This document shows, in pieces, positions 44,607 through 64,000 of a DNA stretch of 64,000 nt. Under the pieces are notes generated by a model that saw only the letters and a program-made list of their open reading frames with translations, did not search any database and was not told the origin of the DNA. Each line of letters opens with the position of its first letter. Positions within the stretch are counted from its first letter, which is position 1. Position numbers and translations under genes: made by a program. The stretch comes from Synechococcus sp. UW140 (GTDB taxonomy: Bacteria; Cyanobacteriota; Cyanobacteriia; PCC-6307; Cyanobiaceae). The stretch lies in assembly GCF_900474295.1 (NCBI RefSeq), contig NZ_UCOB01000012.1, forward strand, positions 62,001-126,000. Reading direction: 5' to 3'.

Positions 44607-45473
44607 TTAGGTGTTGAAGATGAAGCGACTGCTGGGCCATCGTTCAAGGATCTCCTCTCCGAAGTGGCGTAAACATCCCGTGTAAACGTCTCGATAATGT
44701 GATGCGATTTCGGCCTGGAGAGCTTCGCTGATGAGCTTGGTTTTTGGTGAGGCGTTAATCCGTTCGTTGGTCTTGGCGCTGTGGAGATCGAGATCAAGGA
44801 ACGTGCTGAGCTTGATCAGGCTGGCCTGCTCAAAGAGGGATTCATAGAAGCCGCAATGGAGGGCATCTGCAGGAAATGCAGACCGCAGTGCTTGCAGAGT
44901 GAGGTGGTATTGGCCTTTGGTGGAGAAGCGCGGGTGGCGGTAATGCAGTGCGAGGGCTTCTTCTTCTGAGCTGCACTGGTTGACGCTGGCCATCTTTCCG
45001 TTGGTACGCAGCATCCGTACCTGTGACCACACTCTTTCAACAGGATCCCGCATGAGAAATATCACCTTCACGGTAAATCCTTGCTTGTTGAGGTGTCGTT
45101 TGGCTCGCTTGAAGGTCTGTCGGCTGAGATTGGAGTAGTGGGGGGACATATCTCCTGTGGCCTTGATTTGTGGATGGTGATTCATCAGCCACTGGAAATA
45201 GCGGTAGTAGGCTCTTTCGTTGTGAAGAATCAGCCGGTGCTTGGCGGCATCATCCAGGTGGCCAAACTGCTCAGAGGCTGATGGTCGATCAAGTGATCGA
45301 TGCTGAAGCTGCTGTTGCAGCTGCTCCCGCCAGCGTCGATCGCGTAGGGCGCGGTATTCCTTGCAGAAGCCCATGTCAACCAGGGGGTGCTGCTGCAGTT
45401 GATGGTGCAACCAGGAGGTGCCGCACTTTTGGGCGCCCACCCCAAGAATGAATGTCTTGCCGTTGCCCGTCAT
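44607..45473 (-). CDS. sulfotransferase family protein
   Basis: The 288-residue protein starts with FILGVGAQKCGTSWLHHQL (PAPS loop at 11-20), has FCKEYRAL, ATGDMSPHYSNLS and VIFLMRDPVERVWSQVRMLR as the 3'-phosphate site. It is the closest relative in the window of the 28852-29736 product. Its start overlaps the stop of the selD fusion gene by 4 bases, making it the last gene of the leftward wza operon. That placement suggests that it modifies the exopolysaccharide exported by the operon's own machinery. Confidence 0.88.
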   Translation of the reverse strand: MTGNGKTFILGVGAQKCGTSWLHHQLQQHPLVDMGFCKEYRALRDRRWREQLQQQLQHRSLDRPSASEQFGHLDDAAKHRLILHNERAYYRYFQWLMNHHPQIKATGDMSPHYSNLSRQTFKRAKRHLNKQGFTVKVIFLMRDPVERVWSQVRMLRTNGKMASVNQCSSEEEALALHYRHPRFSTKGQYHLTLQALRSAFPADALHCGFYESLFEQASLIKLSTFLDLDLHSAKTNERINASPKTKLISEALQAEIASHYRDVYTGCLRHFGEEILERWPSSRFIFNT

Positions 45474-47608: not shown

Positions 47609-48980
47609 CAAAGGTCCACCTGTATTGATCAAAGTCTTCTCTGAGTTCCTGGCTGCCAGCAAAGCTGAAGCCCCAAGTCAGGCGTATTGGAATGCCCCCT
47701 GTGAGATTGAGAGACGCAGATAATGTGGTTGCTGTGCCGTTGTATTCGGTGAAAATACCAAAATATTCATTGAAAACTAAGGCTGCAGTTCCGATCGGCC
47801 CCCAGCAAAGATCGGTGTCTCGTTGGAAGTTGGGTTCAGGTCTGTTTTGGACGTTGTTGATGCAAGCGAAGCGCAGGGGATTGTCGTATTGAAAAGCTCC
47901 TGTGCCTAGGCCTCCATTCGCAATCACCAGTGGATAGTCCTTGCCTTGGTTGCCGAGCCACCAGCCTTTGGTGGCCATGAGATAGATGTTTCGGCCGGTG
48001 TCAGTGTTGTCATCCCATTGAATCAGCTGTTCGGCGCCGAAGGCGATGCCACCGGTGTCGCCGATCGCGCGAGCAACGCGGAAACCTGTCGAAATACCGT
48101 CTGTGATGCCGGTGCTGCCACCGGCGATGTTGGGATTGCTTTGCAAACTACGAAAGGAGGTGTTGAGCCCCACACTCCAATTTTCGGTTTGTAAGAGGTT
48201 CGCGTGCACGATGCCTTCGCCATCGCCTTGGCCGAAGTCGAAGAAGTTGTCGTCTCCTTTTTGGCGCCGGTTAATCGCTTGCACTGTTGCATCGCCAAAC
48301 CAGCGCCGGCTCCACCTCAATCCGTTGGGGACACGCCAACCAATATCAGGCCCCACCAATCCATCACCAAAGGCAATCGAGCGATTGAGCGCTTGAAGAG
48401 GCGGTGGCGGTGGCGGACCGGGAATCACACGTGGCGGCATGGCCTCTTCCTGGGCGATCACCTCAGCTGGTGGCTCTTCGCTTGAGCTAACAGTGGAATT
48501 GCCTGATGACTGAACGTCTTCGATCCCAGCGAAGGTGTCAGTGTTTTCAGGCGCGAGCGGAGCAATGGTGTTTAGTAGCACTTCCCAGACGATGGCGGTT
48601 GCTGGGCCGTTGTGGGATCCATCAGCCGCGACGGATGGGGTACTGGGCAGTGGCTCCCACACCACTTCGGTTGATCGTGATGGATTGGTAGTCGGGGAAT
48701 CTGAAGCCTCTGGATCGGGTACCACCTCCCACACGATCGGTTGGGGTGCAGCTGGCTGTGCTGTTGCGTTCGATTCAAAAGGACTGGTTGGGACGTTTGT
48801 CGCTCCACCATCGACGGCGGGCACCAGGATCTGCAGCTGATCCGCTTGCTCTTCGGTGACGGGCTCCCAGATCACTTGTGCCTGTGCCTGCCCTTGCAAT
48901 GGCGCTGCAAAGGCAAGGGGAGCCAAGCCGCCTAGCAGCCACAGGCGCTTGGACTGTGAAGGGAGTTCTGACGCAGTCAT
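47589..48980 (-). CDS. outer-membrane beta-barrel protein with WE repeats
   Basis: The 463-residue protein has a signal peptide (basic MTASELPSQSKR, hydrophobic LWLLGGLAPLAFA, cleavage near QGQAQA). A linker follows with four copies of a [IV][IV]WE[PV] motif at residues about 37, 83, 107 and 131, set in Pro/Thr/Ser-rich sequence, then a PGPPPPPPLQ stretch. From about residue 205 the sequence has alternating hydrophobic strands with Gly and aromatic residues and ends FGASIGF, a C-terminal outer-membrane insertion signal. I do not recognise the family. The start (ATG 48980) overlaps galE by 4 bases, so it is made with the polysaccharide export proteins, and the repeats may bind the periplasmic or peptidoglycan side. 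Confidence 0.8.
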   Translation of the reverse strand: MTASELPSQSKRLWLLGGLAPLAFAAPLQGQAQAQVIWEPVTEEQADQLQILVPAVDGGATNVPTSPFESNATAQPAAPQPIVWEVVPDPEASDSPTTNPSRSTEVVWEPLPSTPSVAADGSHNGPATAIVWEVLLNTIAPLAPENTDTFAGIEDVQSSGNSTVSSSEEPPAEVIAQEEAMPPRVIPGPPPPPPLQALNRSIAFGDGLVGPDIGWRVPNGLRWSRRWFGDATVQAINRRQKGDDNFFDFGQGDGEGIVHANLLQTENWSVGLNTSFRSLQSNPNIAGGSTGITDGISTGFRVARAIGDTGGIAFGAEQLIQWDDNTDTGRNIYLMATKGWWLGNQGKDYPLVIANGGLGTGAFQYDNPLRFACINNVQNRPEPNFQRDTDLCWGPIGTAALVFNEYFGIFTEYNGTATTLSASLNLTGGIPIRLTWGFSFAGSQELREDFDQYRWTFGASIGF

Positions 48981-50017
48981 GGCGCCTCCCGGTAGCCCTG
49001 GGGATTGGCGGATTGCCAGGCCCAGCCGTCGCGGCACATGTCGGCGAGGGAGCGTTTGGCACTCCAACCAAGAACGTTGGCCGCTTGCTTTGGGCAGGCT
49101 TCCAGTTTGGGCACATCGCCGGGGCGGCGCTCCACCACTTCGTAGGGGATGGTGATGCCTGTGGCGGCTTCAAAGCCATGCACCACATCCAGCACGCTGA
49201 GGCCTTGGCCGGTGCCGAGGTTTAGCGTCAGGCTGAGGGGGGCGTCTGACTGCAGCAGGTGATCGACGGCAGCGGCGTGAGCTTCCGCCAGATCCATCAC
49301 GTGCAGGTAATCGCGGATGCCAGTGCCATCGGGGGTGGGGTAGTCGTCGCCAAAGACCCTCAGCTTCTCCAGCCGGCCTGCAGCGATCTGGGTGATGAAG
49401 GGGAAAAGGTTGTTGGGGATGCCGAGGGGGTCTTCGCCGATGCGTCCGGAGGGATGGGCGCCTACGGGATTGAAGTAGCGCAGGGATGCCACACGCCAGT
49501 CGCCTGTGCTTGCAAGGGCCGACAGCATTTGCTCCACCGCCAGCTTGGTTTGGGCGTAGGGGTGAATCGGATCGGTGGGGGTGGTTTCAGTGAGAGGAAA
49601 ACTGTCGGGTTCGCCGTAGACGGTGCTGGTGCTGCTGAACACCAACGACCGGCAACCGTGGGTCTCCATGGCGGAGAGCAAAGCGCGTGTGCCGCTTACA
49701 TTCACGTCCCAGTAGTGCAGCGGATCGACGACCGATTCGACCACGGCCTTGAGGCCCGCGAAGTGAATCACCGCCTCGATCGGTGCGCCGGCGCTTGCCG
49801 CATTGGCAAACAGTTGCTCTAGCACAGCCGCATCGCGCACATCGCCTTCAATGCCCTGCAGCGAACGCCCGCTCAGCTCCTGCACTCGATCGAGCGCAAC
49901 GGGTGAGCTGTTGGAAAAGTCGTCGAGTACGAGCAGTTCGTGGCCAGCCTCGAGCAGCACCACACAGGTGTGACTGCCGATGAAGCCGGCACCGCCGGTG
50001 ATGAGCAGACGAGCCAT
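48977..50017 (-). CDS. galE: UDP-glucose 4-epimerase
   Basis: The 346-residue protein is an extended SDR with RLLITGGAGFIGSHTCVVLLEAGH at the start, DVRD, VIHFAGLKAV, FSSTSTVYG, HPYAQTKLAVEQML (catalytic Tyr and Lys, YxxxK), SLRYFNPVGAHPSG and RDYLHVMDLAEAH, and a C-terminal RRPGDVP. It interconverts UDP-glucose and UDP-galactose and so supplies UDP-Gal for the polymer. ATG 50017 is taken because upstream residues are shadows of the adjacent gene. It sits 10 bases after the Wzz-like gene and overlaps the outer-membrane barrel gene, so it belongs to the export operon. Confidence 0.95.
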   Translation of the reverse strand: MARLLITGGAGFIGSHTCVVLLEAGHELLVLDDFSNSSPVALDRVQELSGRSLQGIEGDVRDAAVLEQLFANAASAGAPIEAVIHFAGLKAVVESVVDPLHYWDVNVSGTRALLSAMETHGCRSLVFSSTSTVYGEPDSFPLTETTPTDPIHPYAQTKLAVEQMLSALASTGDWRVASLRYFNPVGAHPSGRIGEDPLGIPNNLFPFITQIAAGRLEKLRVFGDDYPTPDGTGIRDYLHVMDLAEAHAAAVDHLLQSDAPLSLTLNLGTGQGLSVLDVVHGFEAATGITIPYEVVERRPGDVPKLEACPKQAANVLGWSAKRSLADMCRDGWAWQSANPQGYREAP

Positions 50018-50027
50018 CGCGCGTTCC

Positions 50028-51800
50028 TCAGGCTGCGTCGGGTGCTGCGAGCGCGGTGTCGAGCAACACCCAGCCGGCGACGGGGCTGCCTTGGAGGGCC
50101 AGCTGTTCGCGCAATTGACGCAGCTGTTCGCGCTTGGCGGCACCAGGGGCGGTGATCAGCAGTTGGGTGGAGGCGCTGCGGGTGGCGAGCAGATCACGGC
50201 TGACCACGAGCTCGCGGGCACTGCCCAGGGCGCGACGCAGTTCAGCGGTAAAGCCCTCCAAAGCCGCTGCATCGAGCTCACCTACGGGGATCAGCGCGAC
50301 GGAGCCGTTGCTGCGCAAAGGACCATCAGCCAGCAGTTGGATCGGCGATCTCCAGGCGTCGGTCGTCGGCATCTCGTCTTGGCAGGGCAGCCGCTCCAGC
50401 AGAGGGCCGGGGAGGTCACGGCCGAGTTCATCGCTGCTGAACACGCGGCCGCTGCGGCGATCGCTCACCAGGGCACCGCCGCTGCCGAGCACCAATCCGG
50501 CGAGCAAGCCCAGAGCAAGGGTGCGGCCCTTGCGGGGGCTGACGGGTTTGTCGAGCAATGTGGGGGTGGAGATCAACTCCCAGGGGCTGGTGGCGCGGGC
50601 CTGCTCCAGTTCGAATTGCTTGAGCTGGTTCTGCAGGGTCACCAACGTGGCTTCATCGCGCAGGGCCTTCTGAGTGAGCTCGCGGTGGCGCGCCACCACC
50701 TCTTTGGGGCGGTTGAGGGCCTGGAGGTTGGCCTGGGCCAGATCGAGCTCGCCCTTGAGCAGAGCAATCGTTTGTTGGTTGATGTAGCGCACCAGGGTGT
50801 TGCGCTCCCGTTCCAGCTTCTGCACCAGCGGGTCGTTGTCTTTGAAGCGGGAGCGGAGCTCCGCCAGTCGGGTCTCCACCGACGTGAGTTGGTCGAAGGT
50901 CGACGACTTGTCGGTGAGGGAGGCGAGTTGGGAGGCGAAATAGAGAGAGCCGGCTCCGGCTTTGCTGGCTTCTTCAATTTGGATCTGCAGCGCCTTCACC
51001 TTCTGCTGCGCGCCTGTGCGAGCCGCTTCAACGCTGCCGCCGCTGCCCCCCACCGTGGCACCTTTAGTGGATCCATCTTTGGAGACACCAGCACCAGACA
51101 CATTGCCGGCGAGGGGCAGGCCATCGAGCAAGCCGAGACCGTTGGCGTAGCCGTAGTCCAGGGCGACGCGGGCGCTGGCCTCCGCCTGGGGCTTGATCGT
51201 GTTGATCTGCTCGTTGAGGTAGGCGATCAAATTGCTGAGCTCGCGGGCTCGGCCGCGGTTGGAATAGCCCTGGTAGGCCTGGGAGATCATTTTGGTGATC
51301 GGCAGTACCAGTTGCTCGTTGGTGTCGCGGAATTCCACGTTGAGCACCGAAGTGCCTTTTTCTTCTTCAGCGGTGATCGCTGACTTGGCCCAGTCTTGAA
51401 AGCGCATGCCTTTTGCCGCTTCAGGCGGCTTGCGTGCCTTTACGGCATCGAAGACGGGGCGCAGCACCGAGGGGCTGTTGAGGATCTGCACCTCGGTGGC
51501 GATCGAATCATTGGCACCGCCGCCACCTAAACCCGCAAGGGCCGACAGAGCAGGGTTCTGGCTGAGAAGGGCAGCCGCGCCTGACTGGTTGTTCTGCTGG
51601 TTGAGAACGATTTGGAACTCACCTTGATAGACAGGCTTGGCCGTGAGCAGGTAGAGCCCGGAGAGAACGAGGCCGAGGGCACCACCACCAGCAATCCATT
51701 GCCAGCGGCGCCCCAGGGCACCAGCCACTTGGCGTAGATCGATTTCGTCGTCTCTAGCTGGGGAGGCGGCCAGGGGCTGCTCGGCGGGGGCGGTGGTCAT
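50028..51800 (-). CDS. Wzz/Wzc-like polysaccharide co-polymerase without visible tyrosine-kinase motifs
   Basis: The 590-residue protein has the layout of the chain-length determinant family: helix 1 at about 35-53, a long periplasmic part with coiled-coil character (about 190-390), a Pro-containing segment before helix 2 at about 447-470 and a cytoplasmic tail of about 110 residues. In Wzc-type proteins that tail is a BY-kinase with Walker A, A' and a Tyr cluster; here none is visible, although VALIPVGELD and LLITAPGAAKREQL look like remnants of the fold. It probably regulates length but not through own phosphorylation. GTG 51803 or ATG 51800 are both possible starts; ATG 51800 makes the TGATG junction with wza. 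Confidence 0.86.
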   Translation of the reverse strand: MTTAPAEQPLAASPARDDEIDLRQVAGALGRRWQWIAGGGALGLVLSGLYLLTAKPVYQGEFQIVLNQQNNQSGAAALLSQNPALSALAGLGGGGANDSIATEVQILNSPSVLRPVFDAVKARKPPEAAKGMRFQDWAKSAITAEEEKGTSVLNVEFRDTNEQLVLPITKMISQAYQGYSNRGRARELSNLIAYLNEQINTIKPQAEASARVALDYGYANGLGLLDGLPLAGNVSGAGVSKDGSTKGATVGGSGGSVEAARTGAQQKVKALQIQIEEASKAGAGSLYFASQLASLTDKSSTFDQLTSVETRLAELRSRFKDNDPLVQKLERERNTLVRYINQQTIALLKGELDLAQANLQALNRPKEVVARHRELTQKALRDEATLVTLQNQLKQFELEQARATSPWELISTPTLLDKPVSPRKGRTLALGLLAGLVLGSGGALVSDRRSGRVFSSDELGRDLPGPLLERLPCQDEMPTTDAWRSPIQLLADGPLRSNGSVALIPVGELDAAALEGFTAELRRALGSARELVVSRDLLATRSASTQLLITAPGAAKREQLRQLREQLALQGSPVAGWVLLDTALAAPDAA

Positions 51801-53077
51801 CACTGGAAGTCGCGGAACAGGCTGTACACCGAATAAACGCCAACGGCAGGGCCCGTGAGTTCGTTGAGCACGGTGACGGTGGCGGAGAGGGGCGAATCGT
51901 TGACGCGCACCACATCACCGGCCATCAAAATTGGATTTTTGTAGGACCCGGCAGGGTTAGCACCACCCACGAAGAATTTGCGTTGGTCGGTTGTTCCATC
52001 GCGGTTGAACCGGATGAACTCCACCTGCCCACGGATCAGCTTCTGACCGCCAGCGGACGCGAGGGCTTGATCGAGAGAGGCCCCCTGGGGAAGAACTTTG
52101 GAACCGGGGGCGCGAACTCGACCGGTCACGAACACCTGGACGAAATCAGGGCTGAGATTGGTTTGACCAGCCTTGATGATTTGCTCACGCAATTCCACAG
52201 GAGATCGTGCGACCACCACCGTGTCGCCATCAAAGAGGCGGATGTTTTGCGACTCGTTGCCCTCTGTGATTAAGGTCAGAAAATTGAGCTTTGTGCGCAT
52301 CTTGCCGCCGCCGCTGCTTAGGGGGCGCTTGCGAGTGACCGACACCTCACTGAGCTTGGAGAAGGGGGTGACGCCACCGGCGGTGCGCAGGGCATCGAAG
52401 ACGGTGGGCAGGCGCAGGGCTTCATTCACCTGCACGCCAAGAATGCGCGGCCCAATTTGGTTGGCCGGGTTGCTGGTGATGCCCGCAGTGGTTGCCCGCC
52501 CAGCAACTCCCACTTGCCCTGTGGCGAGATTGGTGGCGCCAGGGTTGGTGGAAGTTGTGGCTTCTTCCAGACCCACGACCCCCTGTTTCCCCGAGAGGTA
52601 GTAATACCCAGGCCGGGCCACTTCACCACCGATGTAGACGCGGATCGGCCGGTAGGCGGCCGGGCTCACGAACACCTGGGGGTCGCGCACGTAGGCGCTG
52701 AATTGCCGGGTGAGGAAGTAACGCAGCTCTTCTACGGTGAGTCCCTCCACGACAAGGGAGCGCAGCCGCGGCAAATAGAGGGTACCGTCGGGGCCGATGG
52801 TAAAAACTCCGGAATATTCCGGAATATCCAGCAGCTCTACCACAACGGCATCGCCTGGACCGAGGATGTAGGCGTCTTGGATCGGGGCGTTGGGGATCGG
52901 TCTTGCCGCTCCTTCAGGTGCCGGAGCGGTGATCGTGACGGTTTCGGTGACCTGAAGCGTTTCCTGTTCTGGCAGCTGAGTTTGCGCGAGCCCTGCTGGC
53001 CAACTTCCCGACAGCGCAATCAGAGCCATGGCTGGGACCCGGGCAGAACGCTGGAGAAATCGACTGCGCTGATTCAT
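51800..53077 (-). CDS. Wza-like polysaccharide export protein
   Basis: The 425-residue protein has a signal peptide (VPAMALIALSGSWPAGLAQ), a Poly_export domain with YILGPGDAVVVELLDIPEYSG and GPDGTLYLPRL, and SLBB domains (VYIGGEVARPGYYYL; VFVTGRVRAPGSKVL). In the Wza family these assemble into the ring that carries polysaccharide through the outer membrane. No lipobox Cys is seen, so it is not a lipoprotein as E. coli Wza is. It is the first gene of a leftward operon (wza, wzz-like, galE, barrel, selD fusion, sulfotransferase), so the promoter should lie in the spacer before 53077. That spacer starts with an rfbB remnant. Confidence 0.9.
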   Translation of the reverse strand: MNQRSRFLQRSARVPAMALIALSGSWPAGLAQTQLPEQETLQVTETVTITAPAPEGAARPIPNAPIQDAYILGPGDAVVVELLDIPEYSGVFTIGPDGTLYLPRLRSLVVEGLTVEELRYFLTRQFSAYVRDPQVFVSPAAYRPIRVYIGGEVARPGYYYLSGKQGVVGLEEATTSTNPGATNLATGQVGVAGRATTAGITSNPANQIGPRILGVQVNEALRLPTVFDALRTAGGVTPFSKLSEVSVTRKRPLSSGGGKMRTKLNFLTLITEGNESQNIRLFDGDTVVVARSPVELREQIIKAGQTNLSPDFVQVFVTGRVRAPGSKVLPQGASLDQALASAGGQKLIRGQVEFIRFNRDGTTDQRKFFVGGANPAGSYKNPILMAGDVVRVNDSPLSATVTVLNELTGPAVGVYSVYSLFRDFQ

Positions 53078-54308: not shown

Positions 54309-55412
54309 ATGCCCACACCCCTGCCCAAAATCGCCCTGATCACCGGCATCACAGGCCAGGACGGCAGTTACCTGGCGGAGCTGCTGCTGGAGAAGGGCTA
54401 TCAGGTGCATGGGATCAAGCGGCGCGCGAGCAGCTTCAACACCAGCCGGATCGATCATCTTTATCAAGACCCCCACGAAAGTGATCCGCGACTGGTGCTC
54501 CACTACGGCGACCTCACCGACAGCACCAACCTGATCCGGATCATCCAGCAGGTGCAGCCCGATGAGATTTACAATCTCGGCGCTCAAAGTCATGTGGCGG
54601 TTAGTTTTGAGAGCCCGGAATACACCGCCAACAGTGATGCGCTGGGCACGCTGAGAATCCTGGAGGCCGTACGGATTCTGGGACTCACCGAAAAAACGCG
54701 GATCTACCAGGCCAGCACCAGTGAGCTCTACGGCCTGGTGCAGGAGATTCCACAGAAAGAGAGCACGCCTTTCTATCCGCGCAGCCCCTACGGGGTGGCC
54801 AAGCTCTATGCCTACTGGATCACGGTGAACTACCGCGAGAGCTATGGGATGTACGCCTGTAACGGGGTGTTGTTCAACCACGAGAGCCCGCGCCGAGGGG
54901 AAACGTTTGTGACGCGCAAGATCACGCGCGGTCTGGCGCGGGTGGATGCCGGGCTCGACGAGTGCCTTTACATGGGCAATCTCGATTCACTTCGCGACTG
55001 GGGCCATGCCCGGGATTACGTGGAGATGCAGTGGCTGATGCTGCAGCAGGAGCAGCCTGAGGATTTCGTGATTGCCACCGGCCGCCAGGAGAGCGTCCGC
55101 CGCTTCATCGAGCTCACGGCGCAGCAGCTGAGCTGGAATAATGTGTTGTGGGACGGCGAAGGTATTGCTGAAGTGGGCCGCCGTGGTGACACCGGTGCTG
55201 TGGTGGTGCGCATCGATCCGCGTTATTTCCGCCCGGCGGAGGTGGAGACTCTGTTAGGTGACCCGAGTAAAGCTAAGGACAAGTTGGGCTGGACCCCGAC
55301 AACCACCCTTGAAGAACTTGTTGCTGAGATGGTGGCTACCGATGTTGAGGAGGCCAATAAAGAGGCGTTTCTTAAGCGCAAGGGTTTTGCTGTGGTGGGG
55401 GCGCGGGAATGA
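54309..55412 (+). CDS. gmd: GDP-mannose 4,6-dehydratase
   Basis: The 367-residue protein is a clear Gmd: [70 protein letters not shown] and [14 protein letters not shown] with the catalytic Tyr and Lys, and [16 protein letters not shown]. It converts GDP-mannose to GDP-4-keto-6-deoxymannose, the first step toward GDP-L-fucose. The stop overlaps the start of fcl by 4 bases. Its composition is like that of the G+C-rich core, unlike the genes beyond fcl. Confidence 0.98.
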
Positions 55413-56377
55413 CGTTGATCAATCCTGATGATTGTTTTGCGATTTTCGGCGCCCGGGGTATGGCCGGCAGCGCCATCAGCCGGGCTTTGGAGCACGCAGG
55501 TTACCGGCAGCAGTTGAGACCTAGCCGACAAGAGCTTGACTTGATCGATCAATTAGCTCTCCAACGCTGGTTCGCTGAGAACCAGCCTACCGTGGTAGTT
55601 CTTGCCGCAGCGAAGGTAGGTGGTATTCACGCTAACAACACATACCCGACCGACTTTCTGCTGGAGAACCTAAAGATCCAAACCAATGTGATCGAAACGG
55701 CCTGGTGTTCGGGGGTGCGGCGTTTTTTGTTTCTTGGTAGTAGTTGTATATATCCCAAATTTGCAGAGCAACCGATCCAAGAAGAAGCCTTGCTTACCGG
55801 GCCATTGGAGCCCACGAACGAGTGTTACGCGATTGCCAAGATCGCCGGCATCAAGCTATGTGAAGCCCTAAGTAAACAGCATGGCTTTGATGCAATCAGC
55901 CTGATGCCTACCAACTTGTATGGTCCGGGCGATAACTACCACCCCGAAAATAGCCATGTACTTCCAGCGCTGATCCGTCGGTTTCATGAGGCGGTGGAAG
56001 CCAAGGTTCCCACGGTAACCTGCTGGGGCACAGGCACTCCGCTTCGGGAGTTTCTGCATGTGGATGATTTGGGGGAAGCATGTGTTTTTGCATTAGAGCA
56101 TTGGGTGCCTGGTCCCAAGGATCCCTCTTTTTTAAACGTCGGTACAGGAATTGATATGACAATTGCGCAGCTTGCTAAAGCTGTTGCTGAGGCTACCGGT
56201 TTCAAAGGGGAAATTAGGTGGGATACATCCAAACCTGATGGCACCCCTAAGAAACAGCTTGACGTGAGTCGGCTGGCCCGATTGGGTTGGCGATCACGGA
56301 TCTCTTTGGCAAATGGCCTTGTCAGTACTGTTGCTGAGTTTCGGAAGCAGTTTATTCAAAAATCGTCGCGTTTATAA
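55409..56377 (+). CDS. fcl: GDP-L-fucose synthase
   Basis: The 322-residue protein has the NADP-binding [38 protein letters not shown], the catalytic [13 protein letters not shown] (YxxxK) and [26 protein letters not shown], all typical of the WcaG/Fcl epimerase-reductase. With Gmd it makes GDP-L-fucose. The codon and base use change along the gene: a sample line in the 5' half (55561-55620) has 36 G+C of 60, a 3' line (56161-56220) has 29 of 60, and the line at the end (56341-56400) has 17 of 60, so the composition boundary passes through this gene's 3' half. Confidence 0.97.
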
Positions 56378-56438
56378 TTGATTAATTATTTGAGTGATAA
56401 TTTCTGTTGTTTGGGGTCAAATTACTAATAAGATATAT

Positions 56439-57755
56439 ATGCTTAAAAGATTTATCCCTTCTTCTGGCAAATCAAAGAGTCTTGTCTCTCGCAATCACTC
56501 TTATTGGCTTGCACTTGATAGATCAATTAACATATTCTTCTCCTTTTGTTCTTCAGTATTGCTTGCAAGGTCATTAACAGTTGACAGCTTTGCATTTTAT
56601 AGTTTTTTAACTGCTATCCTGACTATAACAGTTTCCATTGGCAATCTAGGCATATCAAGCCTTATTATAAAAAAGATAATCTTATTTAAGAGTAAGTCAG
56701 AAGAAGTAGTGGAAATCTTTTTTAAAATTAAAGTAATGATATTTTCGCTTATATTTATAATTTCCTTAGGCCTGATTAGCTTATCAGCACTTTCAGCCCA
56801 TGAAAAAATAACTGCTTTCGTTTTTTCATTAACCTTATTAGCAAGACCTTTTGATATATATTCAATATGGTTTAATGCTAACTTAAAAGGTGCAAATATT
56901 TTTCTCGCTAGATCAACTGGTTCTACAATTGCACTAATTGCCAAAATCTTTCTTTTTGCAGTCAAATCTTCTAACATAATTTATTATAGTTTAACTGAAT
57001 TGCTTAAAAATGTAATATCATCCTTTTTCTTTCTCGCTCAATCCAACTTCAAAAATAAATCAGGTCTTTTCAAAATAAACTTTAGCGCTATTAAAGCACG
57101 CGTACTTTTAAGGGGAACAGCACCATTAGCGCTTTCAGCATTTCTTCAATCAATTTACTATAGAGTCGATCAAGTTATGTTGGGCTCATTTGGCAATACT
57201 AATGCCCTTGCGAATTATACAGTTTCGGCTCAATTTAGTGAGATAACATTATTCATTCCAGTTGTATATGTCGCCTCCTTTTATCCTATGCTTATTTCAC
57301 TTAATAGAGACAATAAAAAAGAATTTATAGCTTTATTTAGACAACTTTTTAATAAGCTTCTCTATATAGGCTTGGCAATGACTGCAGTAAGTATTGTTTT
57401 TTCATCCTTTTCGCCTCTTTTATATGGACCTAATTTTTCAGAGGTACTAAGTCTCACTAGCTTGTTATCTATATCTTGCATATTTATAGCAATAAGAGCT
57501 GGTATATCAAAGTGGTTAATTATAAACAATTTAATAAAAATTTCCACTTTAAGTCAGGCATTTGGTGCAATTGCTAATATCATTCTTAATTCTATACTTA
57601 TTCCAAAATATGGTGCTTACGGAGCCGCATTTGCTACCACTGCTTCTCATTTAATAGCCAGCTATCTTGTCTTCATAGTCCTACCTGTTAGCAAGGAGCT
57701 CAGGTCCATTCTATTAAGTGCTATAATTATAAATCGCAAATATGTGAGGGCATGA
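56439..57755 (+). CDS. Wzx-like flippase (polysaccharide biosynthesis membrane protein)
   Basis: The 438-residue protein has about twelve hydrophobic helices and the general appearance of the PST/MOP flippase family: an N-terminal helix followed by FAFYSFLTAILTITVSIGNLGISSLIIKK, a mid-protein VDQVMLGSFGNTNALANYTVS, which is a common block of this family, and a C-terminal GAYGAAFATTASHL. Such proteins flip undecaprenyl-linked repeat units. The start is ATG 56439; an in-frame start at 56394 would add an unconserved leader. It is the first gene of the AT-rich block. A single base separates it from the next gene. Confidence 0.85.
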   Translation: MLKRFIPSSGKSKSLVSRNHSYWLALDRSINIFFSFCSSVLLARSLTVDSFAFYSFLTAILTITVSIGNLGISSLIIKKIILFKSKSEEVVEIFFKIKVMIFSLIFIISLGLISLSALSAHEKITAFVFSLTLLARPFDIYSIWFNANLKGANIFLARSTGSTIALIAKIFLFAVKSSNIIYYSLTELLKNVISSFFFLAQSNFKNKSGLFKINFSAIKARVLLRGTAPLALSAFLQSIYYRVDQVMLGSFGNTNALANYTVSAQFSEITLFIPVVYVASFYPMLISLNRDNKKEFIALFRQLFNKLLYIGLAMTAVSIVFSSFSPLLYGPNFSEVLSLTSLLSISCIFIAIRAGISKWLIINNLIKISTLSQAFGAIANIILNSILIPKYGAYGAAFATTASHLIASYLVFIVLPVSKELRSILLSAIIINRKYVRA

Positions 57756-57756
57756 G

Positions 57757-58782
57757 GTGAGCGTTTTTAAAAAATTGAAGAAACATTTAAATTTCTACCT
57801 ATTGGTTATATTTAGTAGTTCAAGATTCTTATCTCGAATCTACTTTGTTTTTTCTCCTAGGTTTGAAGAAGAAAATTTTCGCGTGTTAAAAGGCCGACTT
57901 AAATATTTAATTAATATAAAATCAAAAAACTCAAACTCACTGCTAAGGCGAAATATCCATCGACTTGAAAAAGGCATGTATATGAAAAATAGGCGAAAAA
58001 AATTTGCCACTTCCTATATAAAAGAAACTGTAGAGATGTTTTTAAACTATGATCACTTTGATGTTAAATCAGATCAAGAATATCTATGGAGCTCTCATGT
58101 CTTGTCTAACTATTTTGATATATGTGAGCTAAATCATGACCTATTGATGACTAAAAATAAATTTGTATCCGTCATAAAAGAAAAACATACTTTGAATGCC
58201 ACTAAAGATTATATTTCCAAATCTAAACTTTCACTAAGCCCGCTTCCAACTTTTAGTGAATTTCAAAATCTTTGTCACTCTAGAGCATCAGTGAGATGGT
58301 TTACTGACCAACAGCCTCCAATCGAGTATATTCGAAAGGCCTTAAATACTGCGTCTACATCACCCTCGGCTTGTAATAGGCAACCTTATCGATTTATAAT
58401 TAGTCGTAGTTCTAAATTCACGAAAAGTATTTTAGATTGCACTGGTGGTACTGCGGGTTTTGCCCACCAAGTCCCTGCGCTAGTTGTGGTAATTGGGAAT
58501 TTAGATTATTTTGAATTAGAGAAAGATAGACATTTAATATATATTGATTCATCTTTGGCTGCAATGCAATTCATGTTGTCGTGTAAGACACTAGGGTTGT
58601 CGACTTGTACCTTTAATTGGCCGGATGTCGGTCGTGAAGACAAGAAAATTTCTAAAGTTATTGATTTAAAAAGTAGTGAGCGAGTTATTATGTTAATAGG
58701 TGTTGGCTTCGCTGACGATAAAATACAAATACCTACATCACAAAAAAAACAAAACAACGACCTTTTTACCGAAATTCAATGA
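57757..58782 (+). CDS. nitroreductase-family protein with N-terminal extension
   Basis: The 341-residue protein (GTG start) has about 170 residues before a nitroreductase-like domain: SRASVRWFTDQQPPIEYIRKALNTA followed by SPSACNRQPYRFIISR is the family opening that binds FMN, and FAHQVPALVVVIG, DSSLAAMQFMLSCKTLGL and RVIMLIGVGFA complete the fold. The extension contains RRNIHRLEKGMYMKNRRKKFA, a motif I associate with nitroreductase-like proteins of polysaccharide loci. It is located between the flippase and pyruvyl-transferase genes. The reaction is unknown. Confidence 0.82.
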   Translation: MSVFKKLKKHLNFYLLVIFSSSRFLSRIYFVFSPRFEEENFRVLKGRLKYLINIKSKNSNSLLRRNIHRLEKGMYMKNRRKKFATSYIKETVEMFLNYDHFDVKSDQEYLWSSHVLSNYFDICELNHDLLMTKNKFVSVIKEKHTLNATKDYISKSKLSLSPLPTFSEFQNLCHSRASVRWFTDQQPPIEYIRKALNTASTSPSACNRQPYRFIISRSSKFTKSILDCTGGTAGFAHQVPALVVVIGNLDYFELEKDRHLIYIDSSLAAMQFMLSCKTLGLSTCTFNWPDVGREDKKISKVIDLKSSERVIMLIGVGFADDKIQIPTSQKKQNNDLFTEIQ

Positions 58783-59957
58783 AACAGGACTTAATTATCG
58801 AAATCCGTAAAGCTGGATTTGTAAACAAAGGGGCAGAATTAATGCTCTTGTCAATTATAAATCAGCTCAAAAATAAGTACCCTCTATCCAAAATTACTTG
58901 TTTAACAACTCATGAAGGTGGACATTTTCCCTATTCTAAGGTTAGTAAACTAGGAATTTTGCCGAAAGGTGAATTATACAAGTCTGGACTAAGCTTTAAT
59001 TATCTATTTGAGCTTTTACCATATCAATTACTTAAAAAATTTGGAATCATCCTTGCTTCTGAGGTAGATGTGATAATTGACTCTGCAGGCTTCGCTTATA
59101 GTTCACAATGGGGAATTAAAGAAACACTGGAGCTATATAAGTCAGTTAATGAAGCCAAAAAAAACAAGAGTTGCTATGTCCTACTTCCTCAAGCATTTGG
59201 TCCTTTTCACGATAAAAGACATCGAAATATCATGAGGCAGATATTGGAAAAAGTCGATCTTGTTTTTGCACGAGACAGTGTTTCATACGCAAATTTAATT
59301 GATCTTCAAGCTAAAAAGGCAAATATTGTTCAAATGCCTGACTTTACTAACTTGCTAAAAGGGAAATTGCCTATGGATATAGATCCAATTTCTTTAGATG
59401 TCTGCATTATTCCCAATAAAAGAATGTGTGATAAAACAAATGAAGACAAAGATATATACATAAAATTAATTTCAAAAATCGTTAAGTATTTGCTTGCATG
59501 TGGCCGTTCACCCTTTTTCCTAATTCATGAAGGTGAACCTGATTTATTGCTTGCAAAAAAAATCATATCTACCAGTCGGCTTGTGAATCTCCCTATAATT
59601 CAACTTGATGATCCACTTTCTATAAAAGGGATAATAGCTAATTCAAATCTTGTAATTTCTAGTCGTTTCCATGGAATCGTAAGCGCTCTCTCTTCAAATG
59701 TACCCACCCTGGCAACAGGTTGGAGCCATAAATATGTTTGTTTGTTCGATGACTATTCTTATCCACAAGGATTGCTAAGTACACAAGTCTCCGACAAAGA
59801 ACTTTATTCAGCATTAGATCAACTTATTTCCAAAGAATCTGCTGAGCTTATATCTAAAAAATTAGAGTACGAATCATCAAGATTACGACAACTGTCTCTT
59901 GATATGTGGAATCAAACCTTTGAGACAATAGACCAATATTTAAATGATTTGCGATGA
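58779..59957 (+). CDS. polysaccharide pyruvyl transferase family protein
   Basis: The 392-residue protein begins IIEIRKAGFVNKGAELMLLSII, has VDVIIDSAGFAYS and YVLLPQAFGPF, DLVFARDSVSY, and near the C-terminus the SSRFHGIVSALSSNVPTLATGWSHKY block that defines the family (His of RFHG, then the GW segment). It uses phosphoenolpyruvate to form a cyclic pyruvate ketal on a sugar, giving negative charge. Overlaps of 4 bases with genes on both sides show tight coupling. PEP is also the substrate of KdsA elsewhere in the window. Confidence 0.92.
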   Translation: MKQDLIIEIRKAGFVNKGAELMLLSIINQLKNKYPLSKITCLTTHEGGHFPYSKVSKLGILPKGELYKSGLSFNYLFELLPYQLLKKFGIILASEVDVIIDSAGFAYSSQWGIKETLELYKSVNEAKKNKSCYVLLPQAFGPFHDKRHRNIMRQILEKVDLVFARDSVSYANLIDLQAKKANIVQMPDFTNLLKGKLPMDIDPISLDVCIIPNKRMCDKTNEDKDIYIKLISKIVKYLLACGRSPFFLIHEGEPDLLLAKKIISTSRLVNLPIIQLDDPLSIKGIIANSNLVISSRFHGIVSALSSNVPTLATGWSHKYVCLFDDYSYPQGLLSTQVSDKELYSALDQLISKESAELISKKLEYESSRLRQLSLDMWNQTFETIDQYLNDLR

Positions 59958-61003
59958 TTTCAGATATCTTATTTATTCTTCCATTCCAAGCCTCATCTGC
60001 TAAAAATCTTTCATCTAAATATAAGGCATTGAGATCCATTCTAGAGACAAAGTCAGATTTATATTTTATTGACTTGCCTGGCAAAATACCTAAACGTCTT
60101 TCTATTCTCTATAATACCCTAATAACACATTCCAAATCTAAAGTGGTTTATTATAGAATTGGCAATATAATTCTAAATATTTTCTTCCTTTTTTTTGCAA
60201 AGACAATAACTCCAAATGCCAAAATATATGTAGAGTTCCCCACTGTTGAGTATTTTAATAGACACGCTATTAAAAACAGCTTCCTGAAATTTATAAATCA
60301 TTTAATAATGTTTATATTTGCCGATTTTATTGTTGCGATAGGAGTCCCTACTGCTTTAAAAAATAGTTCAAAGCTGATACCAGCTAGAAATGGATCAGTA
60401 TATCCCTTCAAATATCATAATTGTAATTATGACATAAATTCTTCTGAAATCCTCCGACTAGTCTGTTTTGCGAATGTATCAAATATTCACGGTCTTGATC
60501 GTATTCTTAATTCTATTAATAACGAATTAAAAATGTTTGGACGTTGCCCCACCAAAATAAGTCTATATACAACTTTTAATAATTATTGTGAGGATTTAAT
60601 GATGGAATATAGAAACCTTATAGATTTAACTCTCTTTGAAGTGAATCCGGTGATATCAGAAATTAATTTGAGGAACGAAGTAAATTCATATCATTGTTGT
60701 ATTGATGCATTAGGTCGTCATAGAGTTCATGATTATTATAATTCATCGCTAAAGTTTCCATTTTATGCATCTTGTGGTATCCCAATTATCACAAGTAGTA
60801 AATTAGATTGTTATAAGTTAATCGAAAATATACAGGTTGTAGAAGCCAATGACAATCCAATAGATCTACGTTTAATTAGAGAATGGCTTTCCACTAACAC
60901 CAATAGACACGCTAAAAATAAAGGTTATTATGAAAAATATCACACTTGGGATGCATCCTACAAGAATGTTTTTGACTCTATAAATCATAGTCTGACATTA
61001 TGA
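59954..61003 (+). CDS. glycosyltransferase-like protein (GT-B type)
   Basis: The 349-residue protein has no clear GT4 EX7E motif but shows the overall GT-B layout: an N-terminal ILFILPFQASSAKNLSSKYKAL, a hydrophobic stretch at about 74-84, IYVEFPTVEYF, and a C-terminal half with RLVCFANVSNIHGLDRIL, FYASCGIPIITS and a final helix-forming tail. FANVSNIHGLDRIL is like the start of a GT4 donor domain (usually G.l...KG...L). A glycosyltransferase is most likely but confidence is moderate. Neighbours overlap by 4 bases. Confidence 0.65.
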   Translation: MISDILFILPFQASSAKNLSSKYKALRSILETKSDLYFIDLPGKIPKRLSILYNTLITHSKSKVVYYRIGNIILNIFFLFFAKTITPNAKIYVEFPTVEYFNRHAIKNSFLKFINHLIMFIFADFIVAIGVPTALKNSSKLIPARNGSVYPFKYHNCNYDINSSEILRLVCFANVSNIHGLDRILNSINNELKMFGRCPTKISLYTTFNNYCEDLMMEYRNLIDLTLFEVNPVISEINLRNEVNSYHCCIDALGRHRVHDYYNSSLKFPFYASCGIPIITSSKLDCYKLIENIQVVEANDNPIDLRLIREWLSTNTNRHAKNKGYYEKYHTWDASYKNVFDSINHSLTL

Positions 61004-62088
61004 TTAGATATCTGATAGTTATTCTAACAGTTGCTTATAGCATTTTAGTCTCGTATTGGGGAAATCTTCAAACATATGGAGATCTATCTAAATACAGATA
61101 TGTTTTTGAGTCAATATCCTTCAACTCAAAAAATATTGTTAACTTCTATGTAAATATGAATCAATATGACACATTGTATGAGCCATTGTATGCATTTTAT
61201 ATTTACATATTCTCTAGACTTTTTAACTATAACTTTTTCTTTTACAGTTCTGCTTCTATCTTTGTATTTCTCTTAATCGTCTATAATTTAGTTGATAAAG
61301 AAAATAAAGTCAATTCTATTATTTTTACCCTCATTACCTCATCTTCCTTTTACTTTTATGTATTATTTACCAATATTGATAGACTAAAATTGGCTATAAT
61401 TTCTATTTTTCTGGGCCATCTGCTAAGAAAATCTACACGCAAATATTTTAATTTGATTGGAAACTATTTTGTTGTTAGTTCATTTATGATTCAGGCATCA
61501 AGCATATTGGTTATTATTCCATATTATGCATTACAATCGAAGCAAAAAGCCCCTAATCCGCACCTAAATATTACAAATATAGGTAGTAAGATTACTGGAA
61601 CAATTAGAAACCTTGTAAGGTTATTAAGCTTAAAAATTAAACTATCTTCTATTCTTCCATGTTTGCTTTTGTTTATTATGACCATACCTTTTTTCCTTGG
61701 AATATTTGATAAAAAAATTGCTGTATACTTATTTAGAGACCCATTCACAATTTATAGTACCGCACAGATCTTTTTCTTTGCAATACTTTTTATGCTTTCA
61801 AGTAATGTATCAAATTCACGCCTTAAGTTAAACTTGAATACATTTTTATCCTTTATTATACTTGTATCTTCAATGATTGCAGTTAGCCTGTTAATAGGCT
61901 TATCCAGAGTAAACATATTATGCTTCTACCTCTCAATGTTAATATTCATCTCTAATTCTTCCAAATCTAATTTTGCTTTAAAGAAATTGACATTATGCTT
62001 ATTCAGTATCTTATGGCTGTATACGCTTCCAAGTTCAGTAATTTACTTCGATAGAATAATTCAAAATGGTTTTGGTTTTGCAGGATGA
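61000..62088 (+). CDS. EpsG/Wzy-like polysaccharide polymerase
   Basis: The 362-residue protein has about ten hydrophobic helices. The N-terminal YGDLSKYRYVFESI segment and YEPLYAFYIYIFSRLF, then NIDRLKLAIISIFLGHLL, resemble EpsG-family polymerases, which have an R-x-x-(L/I)A-x-x-I-F block after a periplasmic loop. Wzy-type enzymes join repeat units in the periplasm after flipping by Wzx. Presence right between two transferases and downstream of a Wzx-like gene supports the assignment, although polymerases have low sequence similarity. Confidence 0.75.
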   Translation: MIRYLIVILTVAYSILVSYWGNLQTYGDLSKYRYVFESISFNSKNIVNFYVNMNQYDTLYEPLYAFYIYIFSRLFNYNFFFYSSASIFVFLLIVYNLVDKENKVNSIIFTLITSSSFYFYVLFTNIDRLKLAIISIFLGHLLRKSTRKYFNLIGNYFVVSSFMIQASSILVIIPYYALQSKQKAPNPHLNITNIGSKITGTIRNLVRLLSLKIKLSSILPCLLLFIMTIPFFLGIFDKKIAVYLFRDPFTIYSTAQIFFFAILFMLSSNVSNSRLKLNLNTFLSFIILVSSMIAVSLLIGLSRVNILCFYLSMLIFISNSSKSNFALKKLTLCLFSILWLYTLPSSVIYFDRIIQNGFGFAG

Positions 62089-63314
62089 ATAAAAACATAA
62101 ATGCTACTGAGAAAAAATCAATTCTAGGGTTTGGAACATTGCCCACTAGTGATTTTACTAGCGGAGCGGCTGAAGCTTTTTCCAGCTTATTCACTCAATT
62201 AGAGAATACACAATTTAAAGTAAAAAAGATTAATTATGCGAAATTCTCTTTCGCCTTCAAATCTCATATTAATATACTTGCTAGTACTATACGATTTCTT
62301 GACACAATTTATACGGTTTTTGCTGCAGTTGTGCTGATACCTTTCTATGACCTCATCTATATTTGTTTATCTAGAAATCTCTTGTTTTTCTTAGCACGCG
62401 ATTTGCCTATAGTTTTGCTTTCGAAATTATTCATGAAAAAGTCTGTCGCTGTTTATCATGGCGGTTCATATTTTACTTTAGGCCTTAAAAATAAGCTTCA
62501 AAGAAAAATTTTCCATAATTTACTTAATCTTCTTGACGCAAAAATAATTATATCCGCGACATTTGTGTCTGATTATAATTTTATGAAACATTCTAAGCTT
62601 CATATTATACAAAATTCACCCCCTTCACAAGAGTTTGATTTAATCAATAAGCAATTATGCAGATATGATTATCTCTCTATTTCCCCTAGAAAAAATTTAA
62701 ATCTTCTTTTTCTCTCAAATTTAATGCATGAAAAAGGATATCTTGAATTAGTTGACTCTGTGATCACCTTAAATTATAGCTATAAATTAAATGTCGTATT
62801 TAATCTACACATTTGCGGATCTTTTTCAAGTACATTCAGCTTGCCAAAATTTAGCAATCATCTTGTGAATCTTCACGGAATACACAGATGCAAGACATAT
62901 GACTCAATTCAAAAGTTTATAAAAAATATCGACTCTATGGATTCCATCAAATTTTATGGTCATATTGATAGCACCCAGAAGTTAAATTTTCTGTCATCAT
63001 CAGATATTTATTGCTTACCGACTTATTATCTGAATGAAGGTTTGCCCATATCAGCAATAGAAGCCATGGCCTATGGTATGCCAATTGTTGGTACACCATG
63101 GAAAGGAATGGTTGATATTATTGATGAAAACCACAATGGTTTTTTCGTTGAGCCTCATAATACCTCATCGATTGTTCATAAGCTATTACAATTTACAACA
63201 AATCCCTCATTGCTCCAAAAAATGGGGGCTAACTCTCTATTAAAATACAAAGAATTTTCTTTCTCTCGCAATTTACAGTCATACATCAAACTCTTTGATT
63301 CTCTATTGTCTTAA
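62085..63314 (+). CDS. GT4 glycosyltransferase
   Basis: The 409-residue protein has SGAAEAFSSLFTQL in the acceptor domain, SVAVYHGGSYF, FLSNLMHEKGYLEL at the start of the donor domain and PTYYLNEGLPISAIEAMAYGMPIVGTPWKG, a typical GT4 donor-site block with E-x7-E. FVEPHN follows. It is overlapped by 4 bases at its 5' end and followed by the sulfotransferase gene after one base. Donor and acceptor are unknown. Confidence 0.9.
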   Translation: MNKNINATEKKSILGFGTLPTSDFTSGAAEAFSSLFTQLENTQFKVKKINYAKFSFAFKSHINILASTIRFLDTIYTVFAAVVLIPFYDLIYICLSRNLLFFLARDLPIVLLSKLFMKKSVAVYHGGSYFTLGLKNKLQRKIFHNLLNLLDAKIIISATFVSDYNFMKHSKLHIIQNSPPSQEFDLINKQLCRYDYLSISPRKNLNLLFLSNLMHEKGYLELVDSVITLNYSYKLNVVFNLHICGSFSSTFSLPKFSNHLVNLHGIHRCKTYDSIQKFIKNIDSMDSIKFYGHIDSTQKLNFLSSSDIYCLPTYYLNEGLPISAIEAMAYGMPIVGTPWKGMVDIIDENHNGFFVEPHNTSSIVHKLLQFTTNPSLLQKMGANSLLKYKEFSFSRNLQSYIKLFDSLLS

Positions 63315-63315
63315 T

Positions 63316-64000
63316 ATGATTAGATCCTTTACCCTTTTAATAGCCGAGATTTTGTATATCTTTTTGCCTAGGTGCTTTAAGCCGCAGAATATCAAAAACT
63401 TGCAACTTTTAAAATCACTAGCACAAGAGCATGAGGTATTTATATTGTCTTCTTATCCACGAAGTGGTAGCACTTGGTTTCGAATTCTTATCTGTGATTA
63501 CTTATCCCAGCTTCAATTGCGCGATTCCTCATCAACTTTGCAAAAAATCAGGCAAGTTAATCGTCTTTTCCCAGACATAGAAGAAAAATTTATTGCTAAA
63601 GACGATATAATTAATTTTGAAGGAAAAATATTTTTCAAATCTCATCTTAACCTTTCATTACTCTCTCTGATCCTAAATCCCTCTCGAAATAAAAATATTA
63701 AATTTATATACTCTTACAGGGACCCTGTCGACATGATAGAGTCATATTATTCTTACTCAAAACTCAAAAATCGCAACAAAATACTGCGTTTTTTGGGTCA
63801 AACTGTTTTTGCAGCATATTCGTCTAGAGTTGTTCGCTCTCATCTTTTGAGTGCCTGTCATGCTTTAAACACAATACCAAATAATGTCTTTCTAATTGAG
63901 TTTAAATTCCTGAAGTTGAATACTTATCAAACTATAGAAAGCGTCTTGCAATTTGCGGGCCTACCTGTAAGGTCAGTATTTTTAAATAATTCAATTGCTT
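63316..64000 (+). CDS. sulfotransferase, 3' end outside window
   Basis: The visible 228 codons start with ATG 63316 and remain open to the window end. The translation begins MIRSFTLLIAEILYIFLPRC and has LSSYPRSGSTWFRIL, the PAPS 5'-phosphosulfate loop of classical cytosolic-type sulfotransferases, then KSHLNL and KFIYSYRDPVDMIESYYSYSK, the 3'-phosphate-binding segment. It differs from the other four sulfotransferases in the window in the P-loop, so it is a different subgroup. It is the last visible gene of the AT-rich cassette and likely sulfates its product. Confidence 0.88.
   Translation, partial: MIRSFTLLIAEILYIFLPRCFKPQNIKNLQLLKSLAQEHEVFILSSYPRSGSTWFRILICDYLSQLQLRDSSSTLQKIRQVNRLFPDIEEKFIAKDDIINFEGKIFFKSHLNLSLLSLILNPSRNKNIKFIYSYRDPVDMIESYYSYSKLKNRNKILRFLGQTVFAAYSSRVVRSHLLSACHALNTIPNNVFLIEFKFLKLNTYQTIESVLQFAGLPVRSVFLNNSIA

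Follow-up and report, generated by a model that had tools for sequence, protein, structure and literature searches.

A nitroreductase paired with a PS_pyruv_trans protein in a Synechococcus polysaccharide locus: a candidate lactyl-ether system

Lactyl (1-carboxyethyl) ethers occur in many bacterial polysaccharides; a cyanobacterial case, that of Cyanospira, is cited in PMC8466920, and 4-O-[(R)-1-carboxyethyl]-D-glucose is listed for Shigella dysenteriae in PMC10609480. Among the closest described loci are those of the Klebsiella capsules (cps), for which PMC4616057 reports that types K8, K22, K37 and K66 carry a pyruvyltransferase gene without pyruvylation of the polymer, and counts two nitroreductase genes and one F420 hydrogenase gene over 78 cps loci. 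According to PMC3857182, which gives the accessions AB819893 and AB819894 for them, the K22 and K37 loci are alike apart from a frameshift in an acetyltransferase gene, and acetylation is the only difference between the two capsules; the K22 structure is cited there and in PMC7246685 under a title that includes the words “another glycan containing 4-O-[(S)-1-carboxyethyl]-D-glucuronic acid” (Parolis 1988). Within the open-licence literature, subscription papers being outside the scope, PMC4616057 is the only paper that names a nitroreductase together with a pyruvyl transferase or pyruvyltransferase in a polysaccharide or glycosyltransferase context, and, among the matches listed, no paper assigns lactyl-ether synthesis to these genes. 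Here we analyse 64,000 nucleotides of Synechococcus sp. UW140 (contig NZ_UCOB01000012.1, positions 62,001 to 126,000; hereafter the window), in which a nitroreductase-family gene is followed by a gene of the PS_pyruv_trans family (PF04230) within an AT-rich block of polysaccharide genes. An earlier interpretation made from the letters of this DNA, the sequence-only reading, had predicted from the block a polymer with ketal pyruvate and sulfate.

The linkage of the two genes was examined in relatives of the window reductase, which were collected by scanning named genomes with a two-sequence alignment; this gave 140 relatives, 80 of which were kept, and these span Pseudomonadota, Cyanobacteriota, Bacteroidota, Actinomycetota, Planctomycetota, Chloroflexota, and others. 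According to a six-frame profile search, the locus contains a transferase for 76 of the 80. It is adjacent to the reductase on the same strand in 56 loci (adjacency meaning profile matches less than 400 bp apart), directly downstream in 52 and directly upstream in four, the match in one of these four, L106, being weak (E 8e-7). In the remaining loci with a transferase, it adjoins the reductase on the opposite strand in one, lies no more than 3.5 kb from it in 16, and is farther away in three. PF04230 occurs at 85 places in 49 of those genomes, about 1.7 in each, so chance proximity would be expected at about one percent or less per locus. The evolutionary distances of reductase and transferase correlate (r 0.68 over 67 loci), and in the 45 loci that also have a flippase the coefficient is 0.72 for reductase and transferase, 0.26 for flippase and transferase, and 0.37 for flippase and reductase. 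Two Rhodobacterales, Gemmobacter fulvus (871 aa) and Paracoccus alcaliphilus (849 aa), encode both in one protein, with PS_pyruv first and the nitroreductase second, and five of the seven plasmid records examined have them fused, adjacent or one gene apart. Among 386 genomes of the window's own phylum, the reductase search gave seven matches besides its own. The PS_pyruv gene adjoins the reductase in G311, G557 and G456 and is separated from it by one gene in G464 and G497, two of these five pairs being confirmed by Pfam and the kinship of the other three coming from the tree; the match in G325 lies at a contig end, and in G047 no PS_pyruv was found near the reductase except a weak partial match 5.5 kb away.

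The same association is found when the search starts from the transferase. In the order to which Shewanella belongs, a profile of the clade that includes the window transferase (clade A, described below) matches 19 of 384 genomes, and the reductase profile matches 26 of 394, 17 of them strongly (E <= 1e-97) and nine weakly (E 5e-76 to 4e-21). All 17 genomes with a strong reductase match are among the 19 with the transferase, the two genes lying within about 130 bp of each other in 15 and about 6 kb apart in two (Fisher p 1e-27 for a table of 17, 2, 0, 365; the test takes 384 as the common genome set, and four of these genomes are also among the 80). Five of the nine weak matches were examined, and in four the transferase is beside the reductase or one gene away. 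Judged by this linkage, the nitroreductase and the PS_pyruv_trans protein form one functional unit.

A tree of 103 transferase rows resolves two clades with redox partners. Clade A has 75 rows (SH-aLRT 98), 73 linked to a nitroreductase and two not, while clade B has 16 (SH-aLRT 99), 12 linked to a nitroreductase, two linked to an FrhB-type protein (F420 hydrogenase beta), and two to neither; the latter clade includes the protein of Escherichia coli O124 and both fusion proteins. The other 12 rows have no redox neighbour in the fetched DNA, about 3 kb on each side. Unlinked rows were chosen as unlinked, although one of 20 (L205) turned out to be linked, and four PF04230 places with fragmentary matches (L201, L213, L214, L219) are omitted. 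Since most rows were obtained by way of the reductase, and the unlinked rows by their lack of a partner, only the search in the order of Shewanella escapes this bias.

The redox partner itself is exchangeable. The cyanobacterium G620 has a clade-A transferase, 37% identical to that of the window, with no nitroreductase in the 15 kb around it; this transferase adjoins an FrhB-type protein that matches the FrhB of E. coli O124/O164 (E 1.5e-65). FrhB of that type was found in none of the 80 nitroreductase loci (E <= 1e-5). Five of 5,426 E. coli genomes belong to the O124/O164 family by wzx and wzy, with a cluster of wzx, FrhB, PS_pyruv, glycosyltransferases, wzy, and glf, in which FrhB stands beside a clade-B PS_pyruv gene and the remaining genes from galF to gnd are all flippase, glycosyltransferase, polymerase or glf. 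We take E. coli O124 to bear a lactyl ether, as in S. dysenteriae type 3, and because the other genes have other evident roles, FrhB and PS_pyruv are the only candidates for it. PS_pyruv is annotated in two pieces in three of the five genomes (e.g. L197 13148-14283, L255 11380-12515), and two of the clusters, compared over 12.8 kb, show 20 differences, namely 19 scattered substitutions and one frameshift, which falls in PS_pyruv. The serotypes of the split-gene genomes are absent from their records; O164 is presumably the lactyl-free sister of O124, in which case the split gene would be a natural knock-out.

The redox pairing of the clade, together with the two cases of known chemistry (O124 and K22/K37), leads us to predict a lactyl ether and makes the ketal of the sequence-only reading doubtful. 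We hold it somewhat probable, from sequence comparison, that the transferase and the flavin mononucleotide (FMN) enzyme put a lactyl ether on a sugar, rather than a pyruvate ketal. The transferase would attach an enolpyruvyl group from phosphoenolpyruvate to a sugar hydroxyl; reduction of the C=C bond of this group by the FMN enzyme would then give the 1-carboxyethyl ether, a MurA/MurB logic carried out by unrelated proteins. The C-terminal half of the reductase model (pLDDT 85) has the FMN nitroreductase fold (8cqt_A, TMt 0.84), and the N-terminal region, helical and about 165 aa long, carries HRLEKG, within a motif HxxEKG that is invariant in the alignment. Its profile relatives include the enone reductase 4qlx, which puts C=C reduction within the range of the superfamily. 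For the transferase, the model (pLDDT 89) is GT-B-like and resembles BshA and GlcNAc 2-epimerases, and a sequence search of PDB chains with its profile gave no match (E <= 0.01). The MurA and MurB families are not among the Pfam or NCBIfam matches of the pair, and the 50 best structural matches of each model have other folds. As printed in PMC8466920 and PMC10609480, the O-chain of Salinivibrio sp. EG9S8QL with Man4Lac and that of S. dysenteriae 10 with Man4,6Pyr share the same backbone, which would fit two fates of one intermediate. For the broader proposal, that the PS_pyruv clade and its interchangeable redox partner (nitroreductase or FrhB) are a general lactyl-ether system on bacterial surface glycans, we put the chances at even; the same holds for its evolutionary side, in which a MurA/MurB-like route would have arisen a second time from unrelated folds and become distributed over several phyla as a cassette of two genes.

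Several observations weigh against the lactyl-ether reading. Four of the 80 reductase loci have no transferase by the six-frame profile search, and one of the five weak reductase matches examined (L195) has none nearby. Two genomes of the order of Shewanella, G1020 and G935, have a clade-A transferase with no nitroreductase or FrhB in the 15 kb around it; two second-copy clade-A rows and two clade-B rows have no partner within about 3 kb; and in G628, where the transferase matches end at contig ends, no partner is seen. A Ruegeria plasmid nitroreductase has ATP-grasp and HAD genes in place of the transferase, and a more distant one on a Rhizobium plasmid is in no polysaccharide locus. The window reductase is a long branch, and its tree position is unsure. 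Furthermore, we infer the assignment of the two Klebsiella nitroreductase genes to the K22 and K37 loci, whose cps sequence was not found via related enterobacterial sequences.

An ordinary pyruvate ketal made by the PS_pyruv protein, with the nitroreductase as an accessory or acting elsewhere in the pathway, is unlikely in our view. It would agree with the match to PF04230, which is far over the cut-off (Table 1), with the characterised members of the family, which to our knowledge make ketals, and with the two of 19 genomes whose clade-A transferase shows no redox partner. However, the window protein misses by far the equivalog cut-offs of CsaB (56 vs 213.1 bits) and WcaK (23.6 vs 399), and other PF04230 proteins stand without a redox neighbour: the second copy of this genome, which we read as CsaB-like, E. 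coli WcaK, and the 12 rows outside clades A and B, with the selection and range given above. A little less probable still is that the pair makes some other redox-dependent group, the moiety transferred not being enolpyruvyl and the flavoenzyme oxidising or reducing the donor or the product. The likeness of the PS_pyruv model to GT-B transferases and 2-epimerases, the 2,4-dihydroxypentanoic acid ethers described for Providencia in PMC10609480, and the Ruegeria reductase beside an ATP-grasp gene are in its favour, but K22/K37 and O124 would then need an extra assumption. It is very improbable that the core is a decaying, unexpressed import, as the strong AT bias and the long-branch reductase could suggest, given that all 13 core genes are open and mostly overlapping or near-touching, with one 87-bp gap before the Bac_transf gene, and that the positions invariant in the alignments of reductase and transferase are conserved in the window proteins.

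Some features of the loci surveyed are recorded here in their own right. In L110, L141, L144, L150 and L156, reductase and transferase are separated by a probable membrane protein, about 310-340 aa long and with the motif KY[IV]PGQVGS. The Ruegeria sp. B32 plasmid (L160) carries a polysaccharide stretch that includes nitroreductase, ATP-grasp and HAD genes in two copies of opposite orientation, facing one another, either a real inverted duplication or an assembly artefact. On the Rhizobium brockwellii plasmid (L164), the one examined out of 24 matching Rhizobium records, the nitroreductase is near a YkgJ-family gene. Small E. coli plasmids (L159, L199) hold pieces of surface-polysaccharide clusters with nitroreductase and PS_pyruv among insertion sequence elements, and the record of a further match (H58) also matches the FrhB/PS_pyruv stretch of O124/O164.

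In this genome of 2.7 Mb, the pair is housed in a block that makes up the exchangeable core of a polysaccharide locus of Wzx/Wzy type. Open reading frames and profile matches give, in the window, the order flippase, nitroreductase-family protein, PS_pyruv_trans, GT-like protein, EpsG/Wzy, GT4, and Sulfotransfer_1, as the sequence-only reading had described it, and its four 4-base overlaps and two 1-base gaps are recovered with the ATG start of the sulfotransferase. Its calls of flippase, nitroreductase, pyruvyl transferase, GT4 and sulfotransferase agree with Pfam; the polymerase is weak, with EpsG under its cut-off, and the GT-like protein has no family. The AT-rich composition that it noted is confirmed: GC content per 1-kb step falls from 0.55-0.66 at 49-56 kb to 0.28-0.37 at 56-64 kb, and GC at third codon positions (GC3) is 0.23-0.38 in the core genes compared with 0.67-0.76 in galE, wzz, wza, gmd and capD, with fcl (0.52) and degT (0.56) at the two core edges. 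The extent of the block needed correction. The window ends inside the sulfotransferase gene, the contig extends 9,176 bases more, and beyond the window come six further AT-rich genes (a second GT4, Bac_transf, a class I/II aminotransferase, a 2-hydroxyacid dehydrogenase, GNAT, and a PylC-like ATP-grasp protein), then a DegT aminotransferase and a CapD/PglF-like 4,6-dehydratase, where GC climbs back towards native values. The seven genes, real as they are, therefore make up little over half of a core of 13 genes and about 13.3 kb, from window position 56394 to window-equivalent 69716, bordered by gmd-fcl on the left and degT-capD on the right, and the seven-gene block was rejected as a unit.

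Table 1. Features of the polysaccharide locus. Positions are those of the window unless marked L003, which covers the sequence past the window edge; scores are given against the cut-off of each family.
Feature	Position	Strand	Evidence and remarks
galE	48977..50143	-	TIGR01179, 395 bits vs 262; GC3 0.75; left side of locus
Wzz-type chain length protein	50028..51803	-	PF02706, 49.8 bits vs 25.5
Wza-type export protein	51800..53077	-	PF02563, 61.4 bits vs 28
gmd, left border	54309..55412	+	TIGR01472, 582 bits vs 415
fcl, left border	55409..56377	+	PF01370; NF047922, 445 bits, under its cut-off of 500; GC3 0.52
wzx-type flippase, first AT-rich core gene	56394..57755	+	PF01943 (Polysacc_synt), 46.2 bits vs 28.2
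Nitroreductase-family protein, proposed enolpyruvyl reductase	57757..58782	+	PF00881, 71.9 bits vs 23.5
PS_pyruv_trans protein, clade A, proposed enolpyruvyl (lactyl-forming) transferase	58779..59957	+	PF04230, 114.9 bits vs 25.3
Probable glycosyltransferase (GT-like)	59954..61003	+	Genomic context only; no match in Pfam or NCBIfam
Probable Wzy polymerase	61000..62088	+	Weak EpsG match, 19.3 bits, E 7e-4, below Pfam cut-off of 30.1
GT4 glycosyltransferase	62085..63314	+	PF00534, 95 bits vs 26.4
Sulfotransferase	63316 (ATG) or 63295 (TTG), to window-equivalent 64191 (L003:10191)	+	PF00685, 68.8 bits vs 22
GT4, Bac_transf, aminotransferase, 2-hydroxyacid dehydrogenase, GNAT, ATP-grasp	L003 10155-15716		Past window edge
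degT, right border	L003 15701-16891		
capD, right border	L003 16848-18776		

The flippase, initiating transferase (Bac_transf, 212 aa), Wza and Wzz are each above their Pfam cut-offs, in support of the earlier view of a Wzx/Wzy-type locus with a sulfotransferase. Sulfation of the polymer is plausible, because the sulfotransferase passes its cut-off and the genome encodes one APS kinase above cut-off; Sulfotransfer_1 occurs at five places in it. A weaker match to this family lies at window 44766-45443 (-), E 4.9e-8, about 3.5 kb from galE. The polymer would thus be both sulfated and lactylated, with fucose available from gmd and fcl. An N-acylated 4-amino-4,6-dideoxy sugar (capD, degT, GNAT) would probably stand at the reducing end, placed by Bac_transf, and the aminotransferase, hydroxyacid dehydrogenase and ATP-grasp protein might make and attach an amino-acid-like group. 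The sequence-only reading had taken the combination of sulfate and pyruvate to be rarely described at the genetic level, a view weakened by Cobetia, for which PMC11766843 contains clusters with sulfotransferase and pyruvyltransferase, and PMC6801904 cites an O-polysaccharide of Cobetia pacifica with both groups.

The import of the core, also proposed earlier, is supported. The window transferase is present in one of 31 genomes of the genus (E <= 1e-10) and one of 300 of the family (E <= 1e-15), its own included in both; it falls in a seven-row tree set (SH-aLRT 97) with five Pseudomonadota rows and one Bacteroidales bin, and, in the quick tree of 103 rows without bootstrap, apart from eight other cyanobacterial rows. 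The flanks are shared with congeners: fcl is matched in 18 of the 31 genus genomes, own included (E <= 1e-40), wza stands on the same gmd-fcl side in G019, G011 and G012, the Wzz-type gene is beside wza and gmd-fcl in G019 and G011 too, and degT (79-82% identity) directly precedes capD in G003, G025, G008, G007 and G020. In G019, G011, G020 and G012, gmd-fcl and capD are on the same strand, about 17, 17, 49 and 57 kb apart, and the genes between them, over the fetched DNA (whole in the first two, the two ends in the others), are other than those of the window. In G006 (C2:178913-180767), capD is found split into two pieces that overlap, and one of them contains an in-frame stop. Extending the contig and comparing congeners thus found other genes between shared flanks around a larger block than first described. 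Core genes in G011 and G003 are mostly equally AT-rich (GC 0.31-0.40), and with such strain-specific genes at the same site in other congeners, import is usual here. Homologues of the whole cassette elsewhere were sought and rejected: single-sequence phmmer searches (E <= 1e-5), which are insensitive, gave a match to the reductase in all 80 loci, to the transferase in 75 of them and to the flippase in 33, and no relative of the GT-like protein, Wzy, sulfotransferase, class I/II aminotransferase, hydroxyacid dehydrogenase, GNAT or ATP-grasp protein.

If the pair makes lactyl ethers, this substituent becomes predictable from sequence, and annotations of “pyruvyl transferase” beside a redox gene need revising; under the broader proposal, many loci described as pyruvylated would be mis-annotated. 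With a lactyl-forming pair, this cyanobacterium would have a doubly acidic coat, of sulfate and lactyl carboxylate, gained by core exchange.

The general plan of the locus is that of the Klebsiella wzc-gnd type loci as outlined in PMC4616057, in which a strain-specific core of wzx, wzy, glycosyltransferase and modifying-enzyme genes lies between export and sugar genes that are conserved; the window differs in its wzz-wza, gmd-fcl and degT-capD flanks, in the amino- and hydroxy-acid genes of its core, and in its sulfotransferase, which is absent from the gene classes listed in that paper. With K22/K37 it shares a pyruvyltransferase gene without, as we predict, the ketal; there the lactyl ether is on GlcA, and the cps probably include the nitroreductase genes. 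The E. coli O124/O164 cluster is alike in having PS_pyruv beside a redox-protein gene in a Wzx/Wzy locus, but its partner is FrhB and its PS_pyruv is of clade B, whereas that of the window is of clade A. The ketal transferases CsaB and WcaK share PF04230 with the window protein and differ from it in their equivalog cut-offs, which it does not reach, in their place apart in the tree, and in having no redox neighbour. Finally, the proposed two steps, enolpyruvyl transfer followed by flavin reduction to a lactyl ether, are those of MurA and MurB; MurA has the EPSP-synthase fold and MurB a flavin adenine dinucleotide (FAD) fold, whereas the window pair combines a GT-B-like model with an FMN nitroreductase fold.

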